The notes under the pieces were generated by a model. It saw only the letters and a program-made list of their open reading frames with translations. It ran no database searches and was not told the origin of the DNA. DNA of 32,478 nucleotides from a virus. Position 1 is the first letter of the stretch. The number at the start of each line of letters is the position of its first letter. The stretch spans positions 1 through 32,478 of the IMG/VR virus record IMGVR_UViG_3300021961_000357, one strand, 5' to 3'. Below, one piece after another: positions 14,709-32,397 of this stretch. Made by a program: the position numbers and the translations under genes.

Positions 14709-15209
14709 ATGACTTTTCCCGCGCTAGTCCCATCAGCCCGCACCTTTTCACCGGGCAACATCCCGCAATCAAGTCAGATCACGCTGTCTGGCTTGGTAAC
14801 AGGTTTCCGCCGTGGCAACCGGCGCGATGGTCAGACGTTATCGCTGAGCTTCACAAACCTGACTGAGGCGCAGGTTGATGAGATTAAGGCGCACTACATA
14901 GACCGCCAAGGCACGTTTGATATTTTCTTTCTGTCTGCGGAAGTGTGGAGTGGGTACGCAACGCCGCCCATTCCACTGCTTAGTGATTACGCCTGGCGCT
15001 ACGCAGGCGCGCCAACCGTTACCGATGGGATTGTTGGCCGCTGGGGTGTTGACGTTGAGTTGGTCACCTATGCAATCGACACTGGCGACCTTGTATTTGA
15101 TGGCGAGTTAGCACCGGCAAGCCCTGCAAGGACGTATATCCTTGAAGCAGGTGGAGCAGCGGCAACCCCTGCCCGAGATTATTTAATCATCCCGACCGGA
15201 GCAGCATGA
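14709..15209 (+). CDS. Minor tail protein, tandem paralogue 2 with extension
   Basis: 166 aa, 2 nt after its paralogue. Residues 1-120 align with the preceding protein (FPALVPSARTFSPGNIPQSS, LTEAQVDEIKAHY, LSAEVWSGYATPPIP, WRYAG). About 45 extra C-terminal residues (DLVFDGELAPASPARTYILE, then ATPARDYLIIPTGAA) contain a short internal echo: SPARTYILEAGGAA and TPARDYLIIPTGAA. The extension overlaps the fibre gene start by 4 nt and may serve as the fibre attachment point; that is inference. Gene duplication with divergence is visible directly from the shared motifs. Confidence 0.7.
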   Translation: MTFPALVPSARTFSPGNIPQSSQITLSGLVTGFRRGNRRDGQTLSLSFTNLTEAQVDEIKAHYIDRQGTFDIFFLSAEVWSGYATPPIPLLSDYAWRYAGAPTVTDGIVGRWGVDVELVTYAIDTGDLVFDGELAPASPARTYILEAGGAAATPARDYLIIPTGAA

Positions 15210-17086
15210 GCATCACACTTTCGGCACTGCAAAAGCAGCGCACCGATACCGCTGCAAGCTGGACTGCAGAAAACCCGACGCTGTTGGCGGGTGAGCTTGG
15301 GTTTGAATCTGATACGGGCAAGGCAAAGCTAGGCACGGGCAGCACGGCGTGGAACAGCCTGGGTTATTTAGGTTTGATTCCATCTAGCGGCATTTATCCG
15401 CTTAGTCAGCTGTTGATGCCTTTGGGTAGCCAATCTGCGCCATCACTTGCATTTACTGGTGACGTTAATACCGGACTTTATTCGCCTGGAGCGGACCAAC
15501 TAGCCCTCGCCACTAATGGCCAGGGGAGGTTGTTTGTTAATAGCAGTGGGAATGTTGGAATCCAGAGAAGTGCTCCTGACAATAATTTGTCGATTGGATC
15601 TACTGGTTCGCTCGCACAAGACTCTAATAGTTTTTACTTAGGCTCAAACTTTACTGGAACCGGAGCAAACTTTATTGGTTCCTCCAAGCACGCTCAGCGT
15701 TTGTTTTTTAACAATGCTAGCGGCAATGGTTTCTTGTCTTATTCAAACACAAGCTCTGCGGGAACAGCGGGCAATCCAATTACTTGGGAAGAACGCTTCC
15801 GTGTCACGTCCGACGGCAAAGTAGGTGTGGGGACTAGTAGCCCTGGCAGTTTCAACTCTTCAGGTAACAACTTAGTTGTATCTAGCTCTGGCGCAGCTGG
15901 AATCACAATCAACGCAGGAGCAACCGATAGTTCAAACATCTTCTTTGCCGACAGCGGCAACAACACTCAAGGTCAAATACGGTACTTCCATAGTAGTGAT
16001 TCACTCTCATTTGGTGTTAATGGGGGCGACGCTGTTCGGATTAATAGCTCAGGCAACGTAGGGATTGGCACTACGAGTCCCGGCTTTAGTAACGGCGACG
16101 GGCTTGAAATCCAACGAGATGGTACTGCTTGCTTGCGATTAGATGACAACACAAACTCAAAGGCGGGTGAAATTTATGCTGATTCCACAGGGTTAAACAT
16201 AGATGCTCGGGGCACAAGCGCAGTTCTTAATTTTGATATTGGCGGAAGCACTAAGGCAACGCTAGATAATAGCGGCAGGCTGTTAGTGGGCACGTCTAGT
16301 GACTTTAGTGGCAGCACAAACGGCTTGCTTCAGGCGACATCTGGAGGTGGCGCAGAGCTGGCACTCGGCAGAACAAGCACATCAGCACTTGGTGCCGGAT
16401 CTGGACTTGGGCGAATCAAGTTCTATAGCAACTCAGGTTCTGTTTATGAGCCCTCTGCCGAGATAGCTTGCTTAACTGATGCAACCCAGGGTTCGGGTGA
16501 CAAACCTGGCCGTCTAGTGTTCAGCACTACGGCGGATGGGGCGTCTTCTCCGACGGAGAGGATGAGGATTGTTAATGACGGCCGTACAGATGTTTTTGCA
16601 ACCGCAGAAACATTGCGAGTCAGGACAGCGGCTACCACTGCTGCAGCTTCTATAGCAATACGCCTGCAAGCGGCAGCCACGACGATGACCTCAGGAGGAA
16701 CTACCGAATTTCAAGTTACAAGCAATGGGAACGTCGCCAACACCAACAATGCCTACGGCGCCATCTCCGACATTAAACTGAAGGAGAACATCGTTGATGC
16801 CAATTCCCAATGGGATGACCTGAAAGCCCTTCAGGTTCGCAACTATAATTTCAAGGAAGGTCAGACCCACACCCAAATCGGTCTTGTCGCCCAGGAAGCC
16901 GAACTTGTCTCCCCTGGTCTCGTCAGTGAATCCCCTGACCGCGACGAAGACGGCAACGACCTTGGCACCGTTACCAAGTCGGTGAACTACTCCGTGCTTT
17001 ATATGAAGTCCGTCAAGGCGCTGCAGGAAGCAATGGAGCGGATCGAGCAACTGGAAGCCAAAGTTGCAGCCCTTGAGGCGTCGTAG
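15206..17086 (+). CDS. Tail fibre with S74 autoproteolytic chaperone domain
   Basis: 626 aa, probable receptor-binding fibre. Residues 1-50 carry the fibre/tropism-determinant N-terminal domain (TASWTAENPTLLAGELGFES). The shaft is Ser/Gly/Asn-rich with repeats around SSGNVGIQ, SDGKVGVGTSSPG, SSGNVGIGTTSPG and SGRLLVGTSS. The C-terminus is a peptidase S74 intramolecular chaperone: SDIKLKENI begins at about residue 521, GLVAQEAEL follows, and a coiled coil (MERIEQLEAKVAALEAS) ends the protein. Ser521 and Lys526 have the spacing of the known Ser-Lys dyad, so cleavage before Ser521 should release a chaperone of about 106 residues after trimerisation. The start overlaps the previous gene by 4 nt (ATGA). 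Confidence 0.88.
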   Translation: MSITLSALQKQRTDTAASWTAENPTLLAGELGFESDTGKAKLGTGSTAWNSLGYLGLIPSSGIYPLSQLLMPLGSQSAPSLAFTGDVNTGLYSPGADQLALATNGQGRLFVNSSGNVGIQRSAPDNNLSIGSTGSLAQDSNSFYLGSNFTGTGANFIGSSKHAQRLFFNNASGNGFLSYSNTSSAGTAGNPITWEERFRVTSDGKVGVGTSSPGSFNSSGNNLVVSSSGAAGITINAGATDSSNIFFADSGNNTQGQIRYFHSSDSLSFGVNGGDAVRINSSGNVGIGTTSPGFSNGDGLEIQRDGTACLRLDDNTNSKAGEIYADSTGLNIDARGTSAVLNFDIGGSTKATLDNSGRLLVGTSSDFSGSTNGLLQATSGGGAELALGRTSTSALGAGSGLGRIKFYSNSGSVYEPSAEIACLTDATQGSGDKPGRLVFSTTADGASSPTERMRIVNDGRTDVFATAETLRVRTAATTAAASIAIRLQAAATTMTSGGTTEFQVTSNGNVANTNNAYGAISDIKLKENIVDANSQWDDLKALQVRNYNFKEGQTHTQIGLVAQEAELVSPGLVSESPDRDEDGNDLGTVTKSVNYSVLYMKSVKALQEAMERIEQLEAKVAALEAS

Positions 17087-25522: not shown

Positions 25523-26359
25523 TTAGAACTCCTGGATTTCAGTGATTTCAGGTGCCGCCCCACCCTTCTTTGCCCAGTCGGGCAGGGTGAGCGTTTCGAT
25601 GGCGTCGCTATAGCTGGGCCATTTGTCGGCCTCGCGGCAATCGGCGATCCTCTGCAGATCGCGCTGGCATAGTCGCCAACCGTGTTCGATCAGCTCTTCA
25701 TCTGCGGCGTAGACCCCGACGCCATAGGGCGCCTCAGTCTCAACGGCTATAAAGATGAACGCTTCAGGCCGGATGCCCGTGGCCTGTTCAATTCCGTGCA
25801 GATACCAAGCCGCCTGCACGCCGTAGCGATAGGTCATCACGCTTTGCCGGAAACCACGCGGGCTGGCGTCGCGCGTGCTCTTTAGATCAACGGCGATCTT
25901 GCCATCGTCGCTGAGCCAGTCCGGCCTGCATTTGCACTGCAACCCGGTCGCAGCATCGCGCCACATGTGGGTGGTTTCAGGCTCGCCGTTCATCGCCAGC
26001 AGCATTGCCGCCGCTGGGTGCTTCCACACAGATCGGCCCATGTGCTGGACTTTTTCGCCTTCCTCGGCAGTGAGCACCTGCTTGCCTTGTGCGATCACTT
26101 GGAACTGCGCCCAGGCTTCCTTGCCGGCCTTAGTGCGCCGATCAATGCCAGCCGGTGCAACGGCCCACTCGTCATCCCATTTGCTCAGCTCAAGCGTGTG
26201 CGTGTGGAACGCACTGCCAAGCCGCATGGATGGGGTCGGTTCTGGCGCCACCCGTTTTGGGTCCACATACCGCGCCCAGTAATGCAGCGGACTGCGGGCG
26301 ATTTTGTCGAGGTGGCTTTTGCTGATCGCCGGATGCGCGTGATATTGCGCGTTGTCCAT
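25523..26359 (-). CDS. RecE-like PD-(D/E)XK exonuclease
   Basis: 278 aa from ATG 26359. YHAHPAISKSHLDKIARSP near the start, SMRLGSAFHTHTLE, CKCRPDWLSDDGKIAVDLKS with the D...(D/E)xK metal-binding core, and VMTYRYGVQAAWYLHGI follow the RecE/DUF3799/RecB-like nuclease pattern. It would resect double-strand ends to give single strands for the RecT-like partner. The frame is open past 26359 but runs into the divergent helicase gene, and homologues begin near YHAHPA. The operon order is nuclease, RecT, HTH, SSB-like. Confidence 0.85.
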   Translation of the reverse strand: MDNAQYHAHPAISKSHLDKIARSPLHYWARYVDPKRVAPEPTPSMRLGSAFHTHTLELSKWDDEWAVAPAGIDRRTKAGKEAWAQFQVIAQGKQVLTAEEGEKVQHMGRSVWKHPAAAMLLAMNGEPETTHMWRDAATGLQCKCRPDWLSDDGKIAVDLKSTRDASPRGFRQSVMTYRYGVQAAWYLHGIEQATGIRPEAFIFIAVETEAPYGVGVYAADEELIEHGWRLCQRDLQRIADCREADKWPSYSDAIETLTLPDWAKKGGAAPEITEIQEF

Positions 26360-28504: not shown

Positions 28505-28553
28505 GACTCCTCCTGATTTTCTTCCCAACCTCCTAACCCTGCGCCACACTCTG

Positions 28554-28574: not shown

Positions 28575-30617
28575 ATGTCCCCCATCGTCGATCAGCTCTG
28601 CGCCATTCCTGATTCTTGGGCGCTAGTTGCTGTCGGTAACGACAAACGCCCCTATCAGCCTGAATGGCAGAAACATCCGCTCACAAAGCGCCAAGTTGAA
28701 GCCGAACTATCAGCAGGCCGTGCCGTAGCTGTTGGCGTCCTAGCTGGCCCACCCTCTGGCGGTCTCCTGTTCGTTGATCACGATGGCCTCGGCGCCTCTG
28801 AGGTGCTCGAATCCATCGGCACATCCCTGCGCGACCTGCCCAAATCCTGGGCCGTAACCTCCGGCCGTGATGGCCGTCTCCAAATCATCTACCGCGTCCC
28901 TGAACCCTTCTGGGATCAGATCAAGACGACCAAGCTCAAGTCCAGCATCAAAGGCGAACAACTCGAACTCCGCTGGACCGGCTGCCAGTCCGTCGTCATC
29001 GGCAAACACCCCATGACTGGCGCCTATCGCTGGCTCAAGGATCGCTCGCCTGATGACCTGCCTCTAGCTGAGGCTCCATCAGTGCTGCTGCAGCAGATGC
29101 AGCGCCCAATCGAAACGCCACCTCTCTTGGCCGCGGCCAATCCAATCGAAGACGCCGAACGCGCTCGCACCTACCTCAGCAATATCCCCAGCTCGATCGC
29201 TGATGACTACGACGAATGGGTCAAGGTCGGCATGGCACTCCATAGCGTCGGTGACGATTCTCTCTTGGCCGACTGGTGTCAATGGTCCGCTGCATCCGGC
29301 AAATACAAGGCCGGCGAATGTGAGACCAAATGGAAATCCTTTAAGTCTGATTCCGGTGGCGTTGGCCTTGGCACTCTCTACCACTTGGCTGGTGGAATCT
29401 CCCCGCGTGATCAAGCCATCAAAGCCATCAAATCTGCCCTTGGTACAAACAACCCAAAGGCGCAAACGATTGGCGCTGGATCTAAAGCCATCAAGCTTGA
29501 AACCGATGAGCTGATCCAACTCATCCAACAGCAAATGTCGGAGCGCCTGCGCTTCAACACCTACACCCAGAAAGTAGAACTCGACGAAAAACCCATCACT
29601 GATATCGAGCACCGCTACCTGGAATTTGCCCAGATGGGCGTCAAGGTTGCCAAGGAACTTGCCGCTGACTCCATGGTGTACGTCGCGCGCAAAAACCCTT
29701 ATGACCCCGTGCGCGAATACCTGGACCGCGTAGCAGATGAGGTGGCCCCTGCACCTATCGACCACCTAGCAAGCGCCTACCTGCGCCCAGGAGACGCTCC
29801 AGGGAGCCTTTACGACGCCATGCTGCGCTGCACCCTGATCGCCGCTGTACGGCGCGTCTACGACCCCGGCAGCAAGCACGACAGCGCCTGTGTGCTCATG
29901 GGACCCCAAGGCTGCGGCAAATCCACCTTCTGGCGCAACCTCGGCGGCGCGTTCTTCTCAGATGCCCTCCGCGACATCAACAGCAAGGACGACCTGATGG
30001 TGCTCCATTCCAGCTGGGTCATGGAGTGGGCTGAACTCGACCACATCACCGGCCGCCGTCACGCTGGCCAGGTCAAGGCGTTCCTGTCCCAGCAGACCGA
30101 CAAATTCCGCGTGCCCTACGGCAAGGCCGCTGAGGACTTTCCAAGGCGCTGCATCATCGTCGGCTCTACCAACCGCGACAGCGGGTTCCTGGTGGACGAC
30201 ACCGGCAACCGGCGCTTCTGGGTCATACCCGTCACCGTGGCGCCCCATATCCCCGTCGATGGCCTGCTGCTTGAGCGTGATGCCATCTGGTCCGCAGCAG
30301 TGGCCGCATATCGCGCCGGAGAGGCCAACCACCTGCCCCGTGAGCTTGCGCGCCAGGTGGAGGTGGAGAACGAGACCTACCTGGTTTCCAACCCGTGGCA
30401 ATCCGCCATTGAGACCTATCTCACAAATCGCAGATCGGTCTCAGCTTTGACATCAGAGGAGATTTTGACCAACGCAATTGAGAAGCCTCTGGAGCGCCAA
30501 ACCAAGGGAGATCAGATGCAGGTCGCATCCATTCTCAAGGATCTCGGATGGGTCAAGTATCGAGACTGTCAAAACGGTAGGCGCCAGTATGCGTGGCGTC
30601 TGCCCAACCTTGCCTGA
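28575..30617 (+). CDS. Primase-polymerase with PriCT and VirE/SF3-like helicase domain
   Basis: 680 aa replication protein. Residues about 1-190 form the bifunctional primase/polymerase N-domain: GNDKRPYQPEW, LAGPPSGGLLFVDHDG with the acidic metal site, and ELRWTGCQSVVIGKHPMTG. About 205-275 is a PriCT-2 domain (DYDEWVKVGMALHSVGD, WKSFKSD). From about 370 the VirE-type ATPase begins: Walker A GPQGCGKST (443-451), EWAELDHITGRRHAGQVKAF (about 482 on), PRRCIIVGSTNRDSGFLVDD and TGNRRFWVIPV. It would prime and unwind at the origin. The nearby low-complexity region after its stop is a candidate origin. Confidence 0.92.
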   Translation: MSPIVDQLCAIPDSWALVAVGNDKRPYQPEWQKHPLTKRQVEAELSAGRAVAVGVLAGPPSGGLLFVDHDGLGASEVLESIGTSLRDLPKSWAVTSGRDGRLQIIYRVPEPFWDQIKTTKLKSSIKGEQLELRWTGCQSVVIGKHPMTGAYRWLKDRSPDDLPLAEAPSVLLQQMQRPIETPPLLAAANPIEDAERARTYLSNIPSSIADDYDEWVKVGMALHSVGDDSLLADWCQWSAASGKYKAGECETKWKSFKSDSGGVGLGTLYHLAGGISPRDQAIKAIKSALGTNNPKAQTIGAGSKAIKLETDELIQLIQQQMSERLRFNTYTQKVELDEKPITDIEHRYLEFAQMGVKVAKELAADSMVYVARKNPYDPVREYLDRVADEVAPAPIDHLASAYLRPGDAPGSLYDAMLRCTLIAAVRRVYDPGSKHDSACVLMGPQGCGKSTFWRNLGGAFFSDALRDINSKDDLMVLHSSWVMEWAELDHITGRRHAGQVKAFLSQQTDKFRVPYGKAAEDFPRRCIIVGSTNRDSGFLVDDTGNRRFWVIPVTVAPHIPVDGLLLERDAIWSAAVAAYRAGEANHLPRELARQVEVENETYLVSNPWQSAIETYLTNRRSVSALTSEEILTNAIEKPLERQTKGDQMQVASILKDLGWVKYRDCQNGRRQYAWRLPNLA

Positions 30618-30690
30618 CCAGGTTGGGAGCTGAGATCCACGGCCCCTATTGCCTTCTCCCTATCTCCTTACCTCCTAACCTCTTAGAAAG

Positions 30691-30774
30691 AATATAAATA
30701 AAGAGAGAGAGAGGGGGGTATAGGGGGCTAAATACCTAAGTGTTAGGGGGGGGGTCGGGTTGGGTTGGGTTGGG
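30691..30774. repeat. Low-complexity tract: AT-rich patch, GA repeat and telomere-like G tracts
   Basis: The 191-nt gap between the primase and the gpZ-like gene has no ORF of merit. It contains an AT-rich patch (AATATAAATAAAG around 30691-30703), a (GA)n run, G6 and G5 tracts (30713-30718 and 30723-30727), a run of nine Gs (30746-30754), then GGG at 30757, 30762, 30767 and 30772 separated by TC, TT, TT. It meets the G-quadruplex pattern with very short loops. Possible origin, pause site or regulatory element; see findings. Confidence 0.8.
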
Positions 30775-30796: not shown

Positions 30797-30802
30797 TACC
30801 CT
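30797..30802 (+). promoter_or_regulatory. TACCCT element 6 nt before the gpZ-like gene
   Basis: TACCCT (30797-30802) ends exactly 6 nt before the ATG at 30809, the same as before the VRR-NUC gene. The flanks are also alike (CCCTT before and a G-rich run after). No -35 match was seen. Confidence 0.4.
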
Positions 30803-30808
30803 TGGGGC

Positions 30809-31501
30809 ATGGCAATCGACCTGACAATTGATCAGAAAGGGCTGGTAGCCCTCTCAAGGCGCAGCAAGGCCATCGCAAAGCAGCTGCCCTTTGCCACCAG
30901 CCTGGCCCTGAACGCCCTAGCAGGCGGCTCAAGCAAGATTCCGCAGTCCAAGAGCCAAAACATCCGCAGTGCCCTTGCAGGGGCTTCTAGGGGCTACTTT
31001 GACCAGCCGACCAAGTTCGTACAGAACGCTTGGCGTCAGACCTACGCAAAGCGCGCAGACCTGCAGGTCACCATCTACGCCGAAGAGCGACGGGTCAAAT
31101 ACCTCAAGGCGCACATCCAAGGCGGGGCCCGTACCTACAAGGGCTATGAAGCCAAGCTGCTTGGCTTAGGCAATCAAAGAACGCAAGCGCTCATACCGAC
31201 CTTTGTGAAGCGCAATGGCGCAGGCAACGTCACACGCGGAACCATTGGCAAAATCATCAACGCGCAAAAAGCGTCTGGCGCTGGTTCGGTCTTTGTCGGC
31301 AAGCCTCTGGGCGGCAACCGACCGACTGGCATTTATGAACGAACCAAGGCAGGCACCTTGAAGCCTTTGTTTGTGGCTCAACCACGCGCGTATTACAGGG
31401 CTGGTTTCCCGCTGCAGCAGACAGCTTGGACAGTTCAAAGCCGCAGATTCAGCACATACCTGCAGGCAGCTCTTGAGCAGGCTTTGGCAACTGCTCGCTA
31501 A
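30809..31501 (+). CDS. Putative minor tail/virion protein, gpZ-like
   Basis: 230 aa. The pattern, LPFATSLALNALA near residue 26, FDQPTKFVQNAW, KAHIQGGARTYKGYEAKLL, NVTRGTIGKIINAQKASG, TGIYERTKAG and a C-terminal helix LQAALEQALATAR, fits a phage protein family annotated as minor tail protein Z or hypothetical virion protein. gpZ helps connect tail to head in lambda. It is encoded away from the structural genes, after the replication genes and before the HNH gene; if the genome is circular it lies upstream of the terminase. No other gpZ candidate exists in the head-tail cluster. The identification is moderate. Confidence 0.6.
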   Translation: MAIDLTIDQKGLVALSRRSKAIAKQLPFATSLALNALAGGSSKIPQSKSQNIRSALAGASRGYFDQPTKFVQNAWRQTYAKRADLQVTIYAEERRVKYLKAHIQGGARTYKGYEAKLLGLGNQRTQALIPTFVKRNGAGNVTRGTIGKIINAQKASGAGSVFVGKPLGGNRPTGIYERTKAGTLKPLFVAQPRAYYRAGFPLQQTAWTVQSRRFSTYLQAALEQALATAR

Positions 31502-31560: not shown

Positions 31561-32397
31561 ATGCCCAAAGCTTACGAACTCCCAGCCCCTGGCCAGCCGT
31601 TTGATGCTGCGCTGTTCAAGCTTGGCGTGCCTTGCAAGCGCAATCACATACACGCTGATGGGTTGACCTTGCGATGGCGCAAGCACAAGACCTGCTGTAT
31701 TTGCTCGCGCATTGATTCCTATGAACACCAGCAGCGCTTAAGGCAAGATCCTGAATACAATCGACGGCGCGCAGCTGCTGTTGCTGAGAAACGCAAAAGA
31801 GAGGGCAGGCCATCGCGTTCAAAGCATGGCCTTCCATATACGCCATTGGCAGACAAAGAGACAAGAGACATGCGCGCTGCAATCAAGCGTGCTGGTCGCT
31901 TGCCTTCTGTTAAGCAGTTGATCTATGAGCAACAGCAAAAGCATTGGCTAGAGCATCCAAGCGATCGCTTGAACTATGTGCGTGAGCGTGCCAGATGCAA
32001 TGCACGTTGGCGGTTTTTGACTGATCCGAGCTATCGCCTATATCACCGAGCAAAGAGCAAAGCACGCAAGGTTGCACAACGGGGGGGCAGCCCTGTTCAC
32101 TTATCTGCTCAAGAGCTATGGCATAGGTGGGGGGAGTTCAGCCACACCTGCGCCTACTGCGGATGTGGCGGGGATCTTCAAGTCGAGCATGTTGTGCCAA
32201 TCAGCAAGGGTGGCGAGCACCATCTGGGCAACATTGTCCCCGCCTGCCATCAATGCAACAGCTCTAAGCGCAGCAGTGATGCGCTGTCTTGGTATGTCAA
32301 GCAGACCTTCTATGAGCCATGGCGCTGGCAAAACATTCAATTCATTCTCAATAAGAGCAAGCAAGCTGCGCGTCAGTTTGATTTGTTCGCCTGTTAA
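31561..32397 (+). CDS. HNH endonuclease with N-terminal zinc finger, 278 aa
   Basis: Residues about 20-55 hold a zinc-finger-like PCKRNHIH then CCICSR. A long basic helical middle (YNRRRAAAVAEKRKREGRPS) could bind DNA. The C-terminal HNH domain has HTCAYCGCGGDLQVEHVVPI, SKGGEHHLGNIVPACHQCNS and SKRSSDALSWYV, giving two Cys pairs and the active His/Asn. In circular or permuted genomes it would precede the terminase genes, the position where HNH proteins help packaging in HK97-like phages. It could also be a homing nuclease; the length and extra zinc finger fit either. Confidence 0.85.
   Translation: MPKAYELPAPGQPFDAALFKLGVPCKRNHIHADGLTLRWRKHKTCCICSRIDSYEHQQRLRQDPEYNRRRAAAVAEKRKREGRPSRSKHGLPYTPLADKETRDMRAAIKRAGRLPSVKQLIYEQQQKHWLEHPSDRLNYVRERARCNARWRFLTDPSYRLYHRAKSKARKVAQRGGSPVHLSAQELWHRWGEFSHTCAYCGCGGDLQVEHVVPISKGGEHHLGNIVPACHQCNSSKRSSDALSWYVKQTFYEPWRWQNIQFILNKSKQAARQFDLFAC

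Follow-up and report, generated by a model that had tools for sequence, protein, structure and literature searches.

Positions 30603–30774 of the 32,478-nucleotide viral DNA analysed here (the whole stretch, hereafter the window) most probably constitute an iteron-containing replication origin bound by the phage's own primase-helicase, a reading to which we assign a probability of about 0.85. The conserved feature of this region is a pair of opposed arrays of short iterons, not a G-quadruplex. According to the mechanism that we propose, the winged helix of the upstream-encoded primase-helicase would bind physically to short iterons with the core GGTNRG, here (A/G)GGTTGGG, in two opposed arrays that flank an AT-rich core. 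Helicase rings formed on both arrays would melt this core and, once loaded, unwind the DNA in outward directions; primers for the two forks would come from the attached primase, making initiation bidirectional. For a large and mostly uncultured group of phages that has received little study, such an element provides a candidate origin defined by sequence. These are probably cyanophages, a host assignment that comes from one named close relative, S-LBS1, which infects Synechococcus. It would also extend to tailed phage genomes the SaPI-type order in which an initiator gene is followed by its own iterons.

The proposed initiator is a protein of 680 amino acids (28575–30617, plus strand) with the domain order PrimPol, PriCT_2 and VapE-like AAA+, for which the Pfam matches were 2.9e-18, 4.7e-24 and 7.3e-64, respectively. 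Its best relative of solved structure by sequence was 7pds. An AlphaFold model of residues 330–680, for which the S-LBS1 row was left out of the input sequences, had a pLDDT of 85 and carried at its C-terminal end a winged helix (residues about 609–675; 30399–30599, plus strand) built as helix-helix-helix-strand-strand, with block pLDDT values of about 83–91. The best structural match of the model was PriRep1 with dsDNA (7pds, Z 25.8), followed by the C-terminal region of the phage NrS-1 PrimPol-helicase (Z 13.5–14.1), with which sequence identity is about 11%, and by the SaPI5 primase-helicase (Z 13.2). From this model and from the coupling to the iterons described below, the winged helix is the putative iteron reader.

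The repeats begin within the gene itself, where one iteron, AGGTTGGG, lies on the minus strand in the last codons (30603–30610), and a plus-strand copy of AGGTTGGG follows at 30620–30627, right behind the stop codon (30615–30617). The left array (30651–30681, minus strand) is composed of AGGTTAGG, AGGTAAGG and AGATAGGG, detected by TRF with a period of 8 bp, and adjoins an AT-rich core at about 30681–30704 (A+T 20/24) that is a candidate DNA-unwinding element. On the plus strand there follow a GA repeat (about 30702–30718) and two shorter G tracts (30713–30718 and 30723–30727), this purine-rich stretch (30702–30727) being found in most relatives. Next comes a run of nine G (30746–30754), which comprises 9 to 11 G in the close relatives of the window. 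The right array (30757–30774, plus strand) reads GGGTTGGG-TT-GGGTTGGG and corresponds, when aligned with two relatives (L014 and L079), to two iterons 10 bp apart. In total, 191 nt of the window contain 8 copies of the word RGGTNRG, against 0.36 expected. The short iterons lie directly downstream of the initiator gene, and it is a VapE-like AAA+ helicase gene that adjoins them, as in elements of the SaPI/VapE type. The only other run of at least seven G in the window is a seven-G run at 32081–32087, inside an HNH endonuclease gene.

The primase was used to scan viral contigs, and 187 distinct regions downstream of it were obtained, falling into 56 clusters (<85% identity). The same layout recurred throughout this set, the cultured phage S-LBS1 included: left-pointing repeats, an AT-rich core, a GA/G stretch and right-pointing copies of the same repeats. 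Left arms are pyrimidine-rich, with repeats such as CCTAACCT, and right arms are reversed, with repeats such as AGGTTGGC. The repeat words vary between phages (GGTTGGCA, GGTAGGAAA, GGTAGGGCA, GGAACAAG and others) and are common to both arms of one phage. The reverse-complemented left arm shared 6.18 8-mers with the right arm of its own genome vs 1.51 when arms were swapped (z 12.4, 0/5000), with values of 0.55 for dinucleotide-shuffled arms and about 0.4–0.5 for coding and downstream control regions. These exact k-mers replaced a Smith-Waterman comparison of the arms that reached a z of only 2.5, because of the purine/pyrimidine bias common to all arms. Orientation followed the same scheme, as GGTNRG was found on the minus strand 113 times and on the plus strand 34 times in left arms, and 162 times on plus and 48 times on minus in right arms, at a density of 24.7 per kb vs 5.7 in the background. 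The mean A+T content of the core per cluster was 18.7/24 vs 13.3 for the best stretch elsewhere, taken as background. An automatic core finder recovered two opposed arms around an AT-rich core in 38 of the 56 clusters and did not in the other 18.

The layout is plain in S-LBS1 (MG271909), whose homologous primase is 49% identical to that of the window. Here the order is CCTAACCTACCTAACCTACCTAACCT, AT-rich core and four copies of the iteron AGGTTGGGCA, with the repeats at 34.2–34.6 kb and the arms farther downstream than in the window. The text of the S-LBS1 paper, in which the origin and repeats were looked for, does not mention the iteron element, and a literature search found no paper on iteron origins in cyanophages or VapE phages. 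A distant DNA search among named phages gave no match, and a scan of genome contigs gave three loci only, all in metagenome-assembled genomes with no isolate host. The last part of the S-LBS1 record contains two copies of an iteron-bearing stretch of about 117 bp (L082, 8190–8309 and 8443–8559), the second copy ending the record; this may come from assembly or from terminal redundancy. Five other loci (L045, L049, L050, L051 and L060) have, shortly past the first right arm, an additional array made of three iterons (e.g. GGTTGGAAGGTTGGAAGGTTGGAAGG), and one clade (L020–L031 and L124) has an inverted repeat, GTCTCA...TGAGAC, just past the right arm, about 150–220 nt after the primase stop codon.

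The original prediction had described the G-rich side of this element as a telomere-like tract with a strong G-quadruplex pattern directly behind the primase/helicase gene, and the direct read bore out that description. The nine-G run is followed by TC and then by GGG-TT-GGG-TT-GGG-TT-GGG at 30757–30774, with loops of 2 nt. The GA repeat, the two G tracts and the AT-rich patch said to precede it are all present, and the tract begins 74 nt behind the stop codon. It is the only G-quadruplex-pattern site on either strand of the window. First-order Markov copies of the window contained on average 0.73 ordinary patterns and 0.04 with loops of 1–2 nt, which places the tight pattern above chance. Moreover, contigs from three further metagenomes (L086/L002, L087/L003 and L089/L005) carried near-identical tracts, and therefore the assembly error against which the prediction had cautioned is dismissed.

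The distribution of the pattern rules against a conserved G-quadruplex or telomere-like element. A G-quadruplex pattern on the plus strand was found in just 25/187 related regions and 7/56 primase clusters, and GGGTTGGGTTGGG was confined to the window and three near relatives when the 187 regions were scanned. Where the window reads GGTC-GGGTTGGG-TT-GGGTTGGG-CAC, L014 and L079 read GGTC-AGGTTGGG-TC-AGGTTGGG-CAC, a difference of three bases (30757, 30766 and 30767). On this comparison the telomere look, a 5-bp repeat, is best described as a pair of iterons, 10 bp apart, in a local variant form, and the nine-G run and (GGGTT)n look would stem from the G-rich iteron sequence of the lineage, making G-quadruplex folding unnecessary. 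Despite the strength of the pattern, with 0.04 expected per genome, and the maintenance of the nine-G run in close relatives, we thus regard it as quite improbable that the tract acts as a G-quadruplex or telomere-like structure in fork pausing, priming or initiation. Of the original reading, the part that stands is the origin: replication very probably starts in this region, which combines an AT-rich unwinding patch with an asymmetric G-rich side. The G-quadruplex working principle, whose pattern is absent in most relatives, is not supported. A telomere-like or G-quadruplex pattern can, as a caution, be a by-product of G-rich iterons.

The sequence of the repeats tracks the C-terminal winged helix of the primase, not its primase or ATPase parts. 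Iteron similarity correlated with the identity of the C-terminus (residues 606–680) with r 0.45, and the partial correlation given the other domains was 0.42 (0/2000 permutations), whereas r was 0.11 for the PrimPol part and 0.20 for the AAA+ part. In a scan per position the correlation climbed toward the gene end, with residue 661 foremost and 627 second. Residue 661, in the first wing strand, is Lys in the window (codon 30555–30557, plus strand) and K/R in relatives, and residue 627, with which the second helix of the domain begins, is Ser (30453–30455, plus strand) and S/T in relatives. Arg661 goes with a purine at the fourth iteron base (GGTAGG/GGTGGG) in 194 of 215 sites, and Lys or Gln661 with a pyrimidine, GGT(T/C)GG, in 202 of 271; the two classes agree in 49/52 clusters. 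Among 1462 residue features R661 was the best predictor of base 4 (MCC 0.88, with a maximum of 0.65 over 500 label shuffles), followed by residue 627 (MCC 0.64). In a tree from which the C-terminus was left out, position 661 switched residue class 14 times, and 13 of the 14 independent contrasts were concordant (p 0.0009). New clusters (<85% identity to the first set) fitted in six cases of six, four K with pyrimidine and two R with purine, a seventh later-fetched cluster with Ala661 and pyrimidine being left out of the count. As site 661 was chosen from the first set, these later clusters are the cleaner, if small, test, and the shuffles and contrasts act as correctives.

These data point, somewhat better than evenly, to a recognition code in which wing residue 661, together with 627, sets base 4, Arg specifying a purine and Lys or Gln a pyrimidine, with many switches that would keep the origins of related phages separate and non-interchangeable. 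Residue 661 would then presumably touch the DNA. With its 14 natural switches, the residue-base coupling makes a joint change of initiator and origin specificity directly testable. The part of the gene encoding the winged helix adjoins the origin, and recombination linkage could contribute to the correlation. The gene end and the origin, about 60–220 bp apart, could even have moved together by recombination to the point that the coupling at a genuine origin is mere hitchhiking, as the climb of the correlation toward the gene end would also suggest. We consider this unlikely, given that the coupling peaks at the single residues 661 and 627, after which the best feature within the last 75 residues reached 0.44, the best outside the C-terminus being 0.54. 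Unaligned single nucleotides near the stop codon likewise reached 0.53 at most, and the concordance of 13 out of 14 separate switches argues in the same direction.

The position of the repeats just ahead of late-type genes, the first of which starts with a conserved TACCCTT..ATG motif, would suit a role in regulating the following structural genes, as an operator, a site for a late-promoter activator or an RNA element, and a similar iteron pair ahead of the primase could be taken in the same sense. This reading is nonetheless very improbable, for no tail-gene homologue was detected behind the repeats in 100/187 regions, where the arm match was at least as strong (z 11.8), and the TACCCTT motif leaves with the tail gene (e.g. 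in L035, L059 and L074) while the iterons remain behind the primase. The suggested effect on the next gene's RNA is accordingly unlikely, since that gene is exchanged between phages and the repeats remain with the primase. Scans of the region against Rfam and for promoters and terminators found no family or site of these kinds, and a pattern scan with the tail gene as query gave no relatives. Terminase subunits of some phages read repeated sites, and in gene order the terminase genes come after the repeat region, the small terminase gene lying about 1.7 kb onward if the window ends join. That the repeats are its packaging (pac) site is still extremely improbable, given their coupling to the primase C-terminus and their persistence with the primase when the following genes differ. 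In S-LBS1, moreover, the terminus was located by PhageTerm at 25,643, about 9 kb off the repeats (PMC6157547).

The closest known systems to the proposed iteron origin are, by analogy, SaPI Rep (PriRep1) and SCCmec Cch2, with origins downstream of their own genes. Likeness to PriRep1 and SaPI5 Rep extends from the VapE/D5-type self-loading helicase and the downstream iterons to the best structural match, 7pds; the present case differs in its freshwater/marine cyanophage-type genomes, fused primase-helicase chain, own domain order and G-rich iterons. SaPIbov1 reportedly has two sets of iterons, one on either side of an AT-rich region, as attributed to Ubeda 2012, and the alpha-type origin of phage P4 comprises type I iterons and a second site, crr. 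The iterons of SaPI Rep lie directly downstream of its gene and are read by its C-terminal domain, and the SCCmec Cch2 helicase likewise binds, through its C-terminal domain, a repeat-bearing site just downstream of its gene (PMC7581432). In contrast to our system, Cch2/CCPol-MP involves a separate polymerase-primase and a 23-bp direct-repeat site with AAGTG iterons, and has no opposed arrays like the present ones. Plasmid pRN1 is similar in the domain logic of ORF904 (PrimPol, SF3 helicase and winged helix) and in origin position, its origin being 3' of the PrimPol-helicase gene, an arrangement that the authors note in some phages too (PMC4234260). However, pRN1 needs a 100-nt stem-loop, whereas here the iterons are the conserved feature. 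An origin of that stem-loop type was rejected, as strand folding was no better than chance (z −1.5, with 20/200 shuffles as stable).

The detrended GC skew, whose inspection had also been proposed, had its minimum at 31765 in the window, no more than about 1 kb from the element, and at 34063 in S-LBS1, within about 0.5 kb. Both minima are consistent with an origin, and both are confounded by gene direction, which the skew also follows. A tandem iteron pair is located 36–51 bp upstream of the primase start (28524–28539, minus strand). Comparable pairs were found at −43 to −56 in 13/53 clusters; the R661 cluster L128 has the variant that matches, GGTGAGGC. When the own-versus-swapped comparison was applied to the stretch ahead of the primase, it did not reach significance across all clusters; the iteron pair there is restricted to part of the tree. 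This pair is a possible autoregulatory operator, that is, a self-repression site.

At 30797–30811, the next gene, for a minor tail protein, has a TACCCT motif six bases ahead of its ATG; the motif resembles a TANNNT-like −10 box and would be positioned for a leaderless transcript. The sequence TACCCTTGGNNCATG was present in 127/438 fetched loci, one per locus, many of these loci being overlapping copies of the same contig, and it moves with the tail gene. Another tail protein of the window (15206–17086) combines an Mtd_N domain (major tropism determinant) with a C-terminal Peptidase_S74 chaperone domain.
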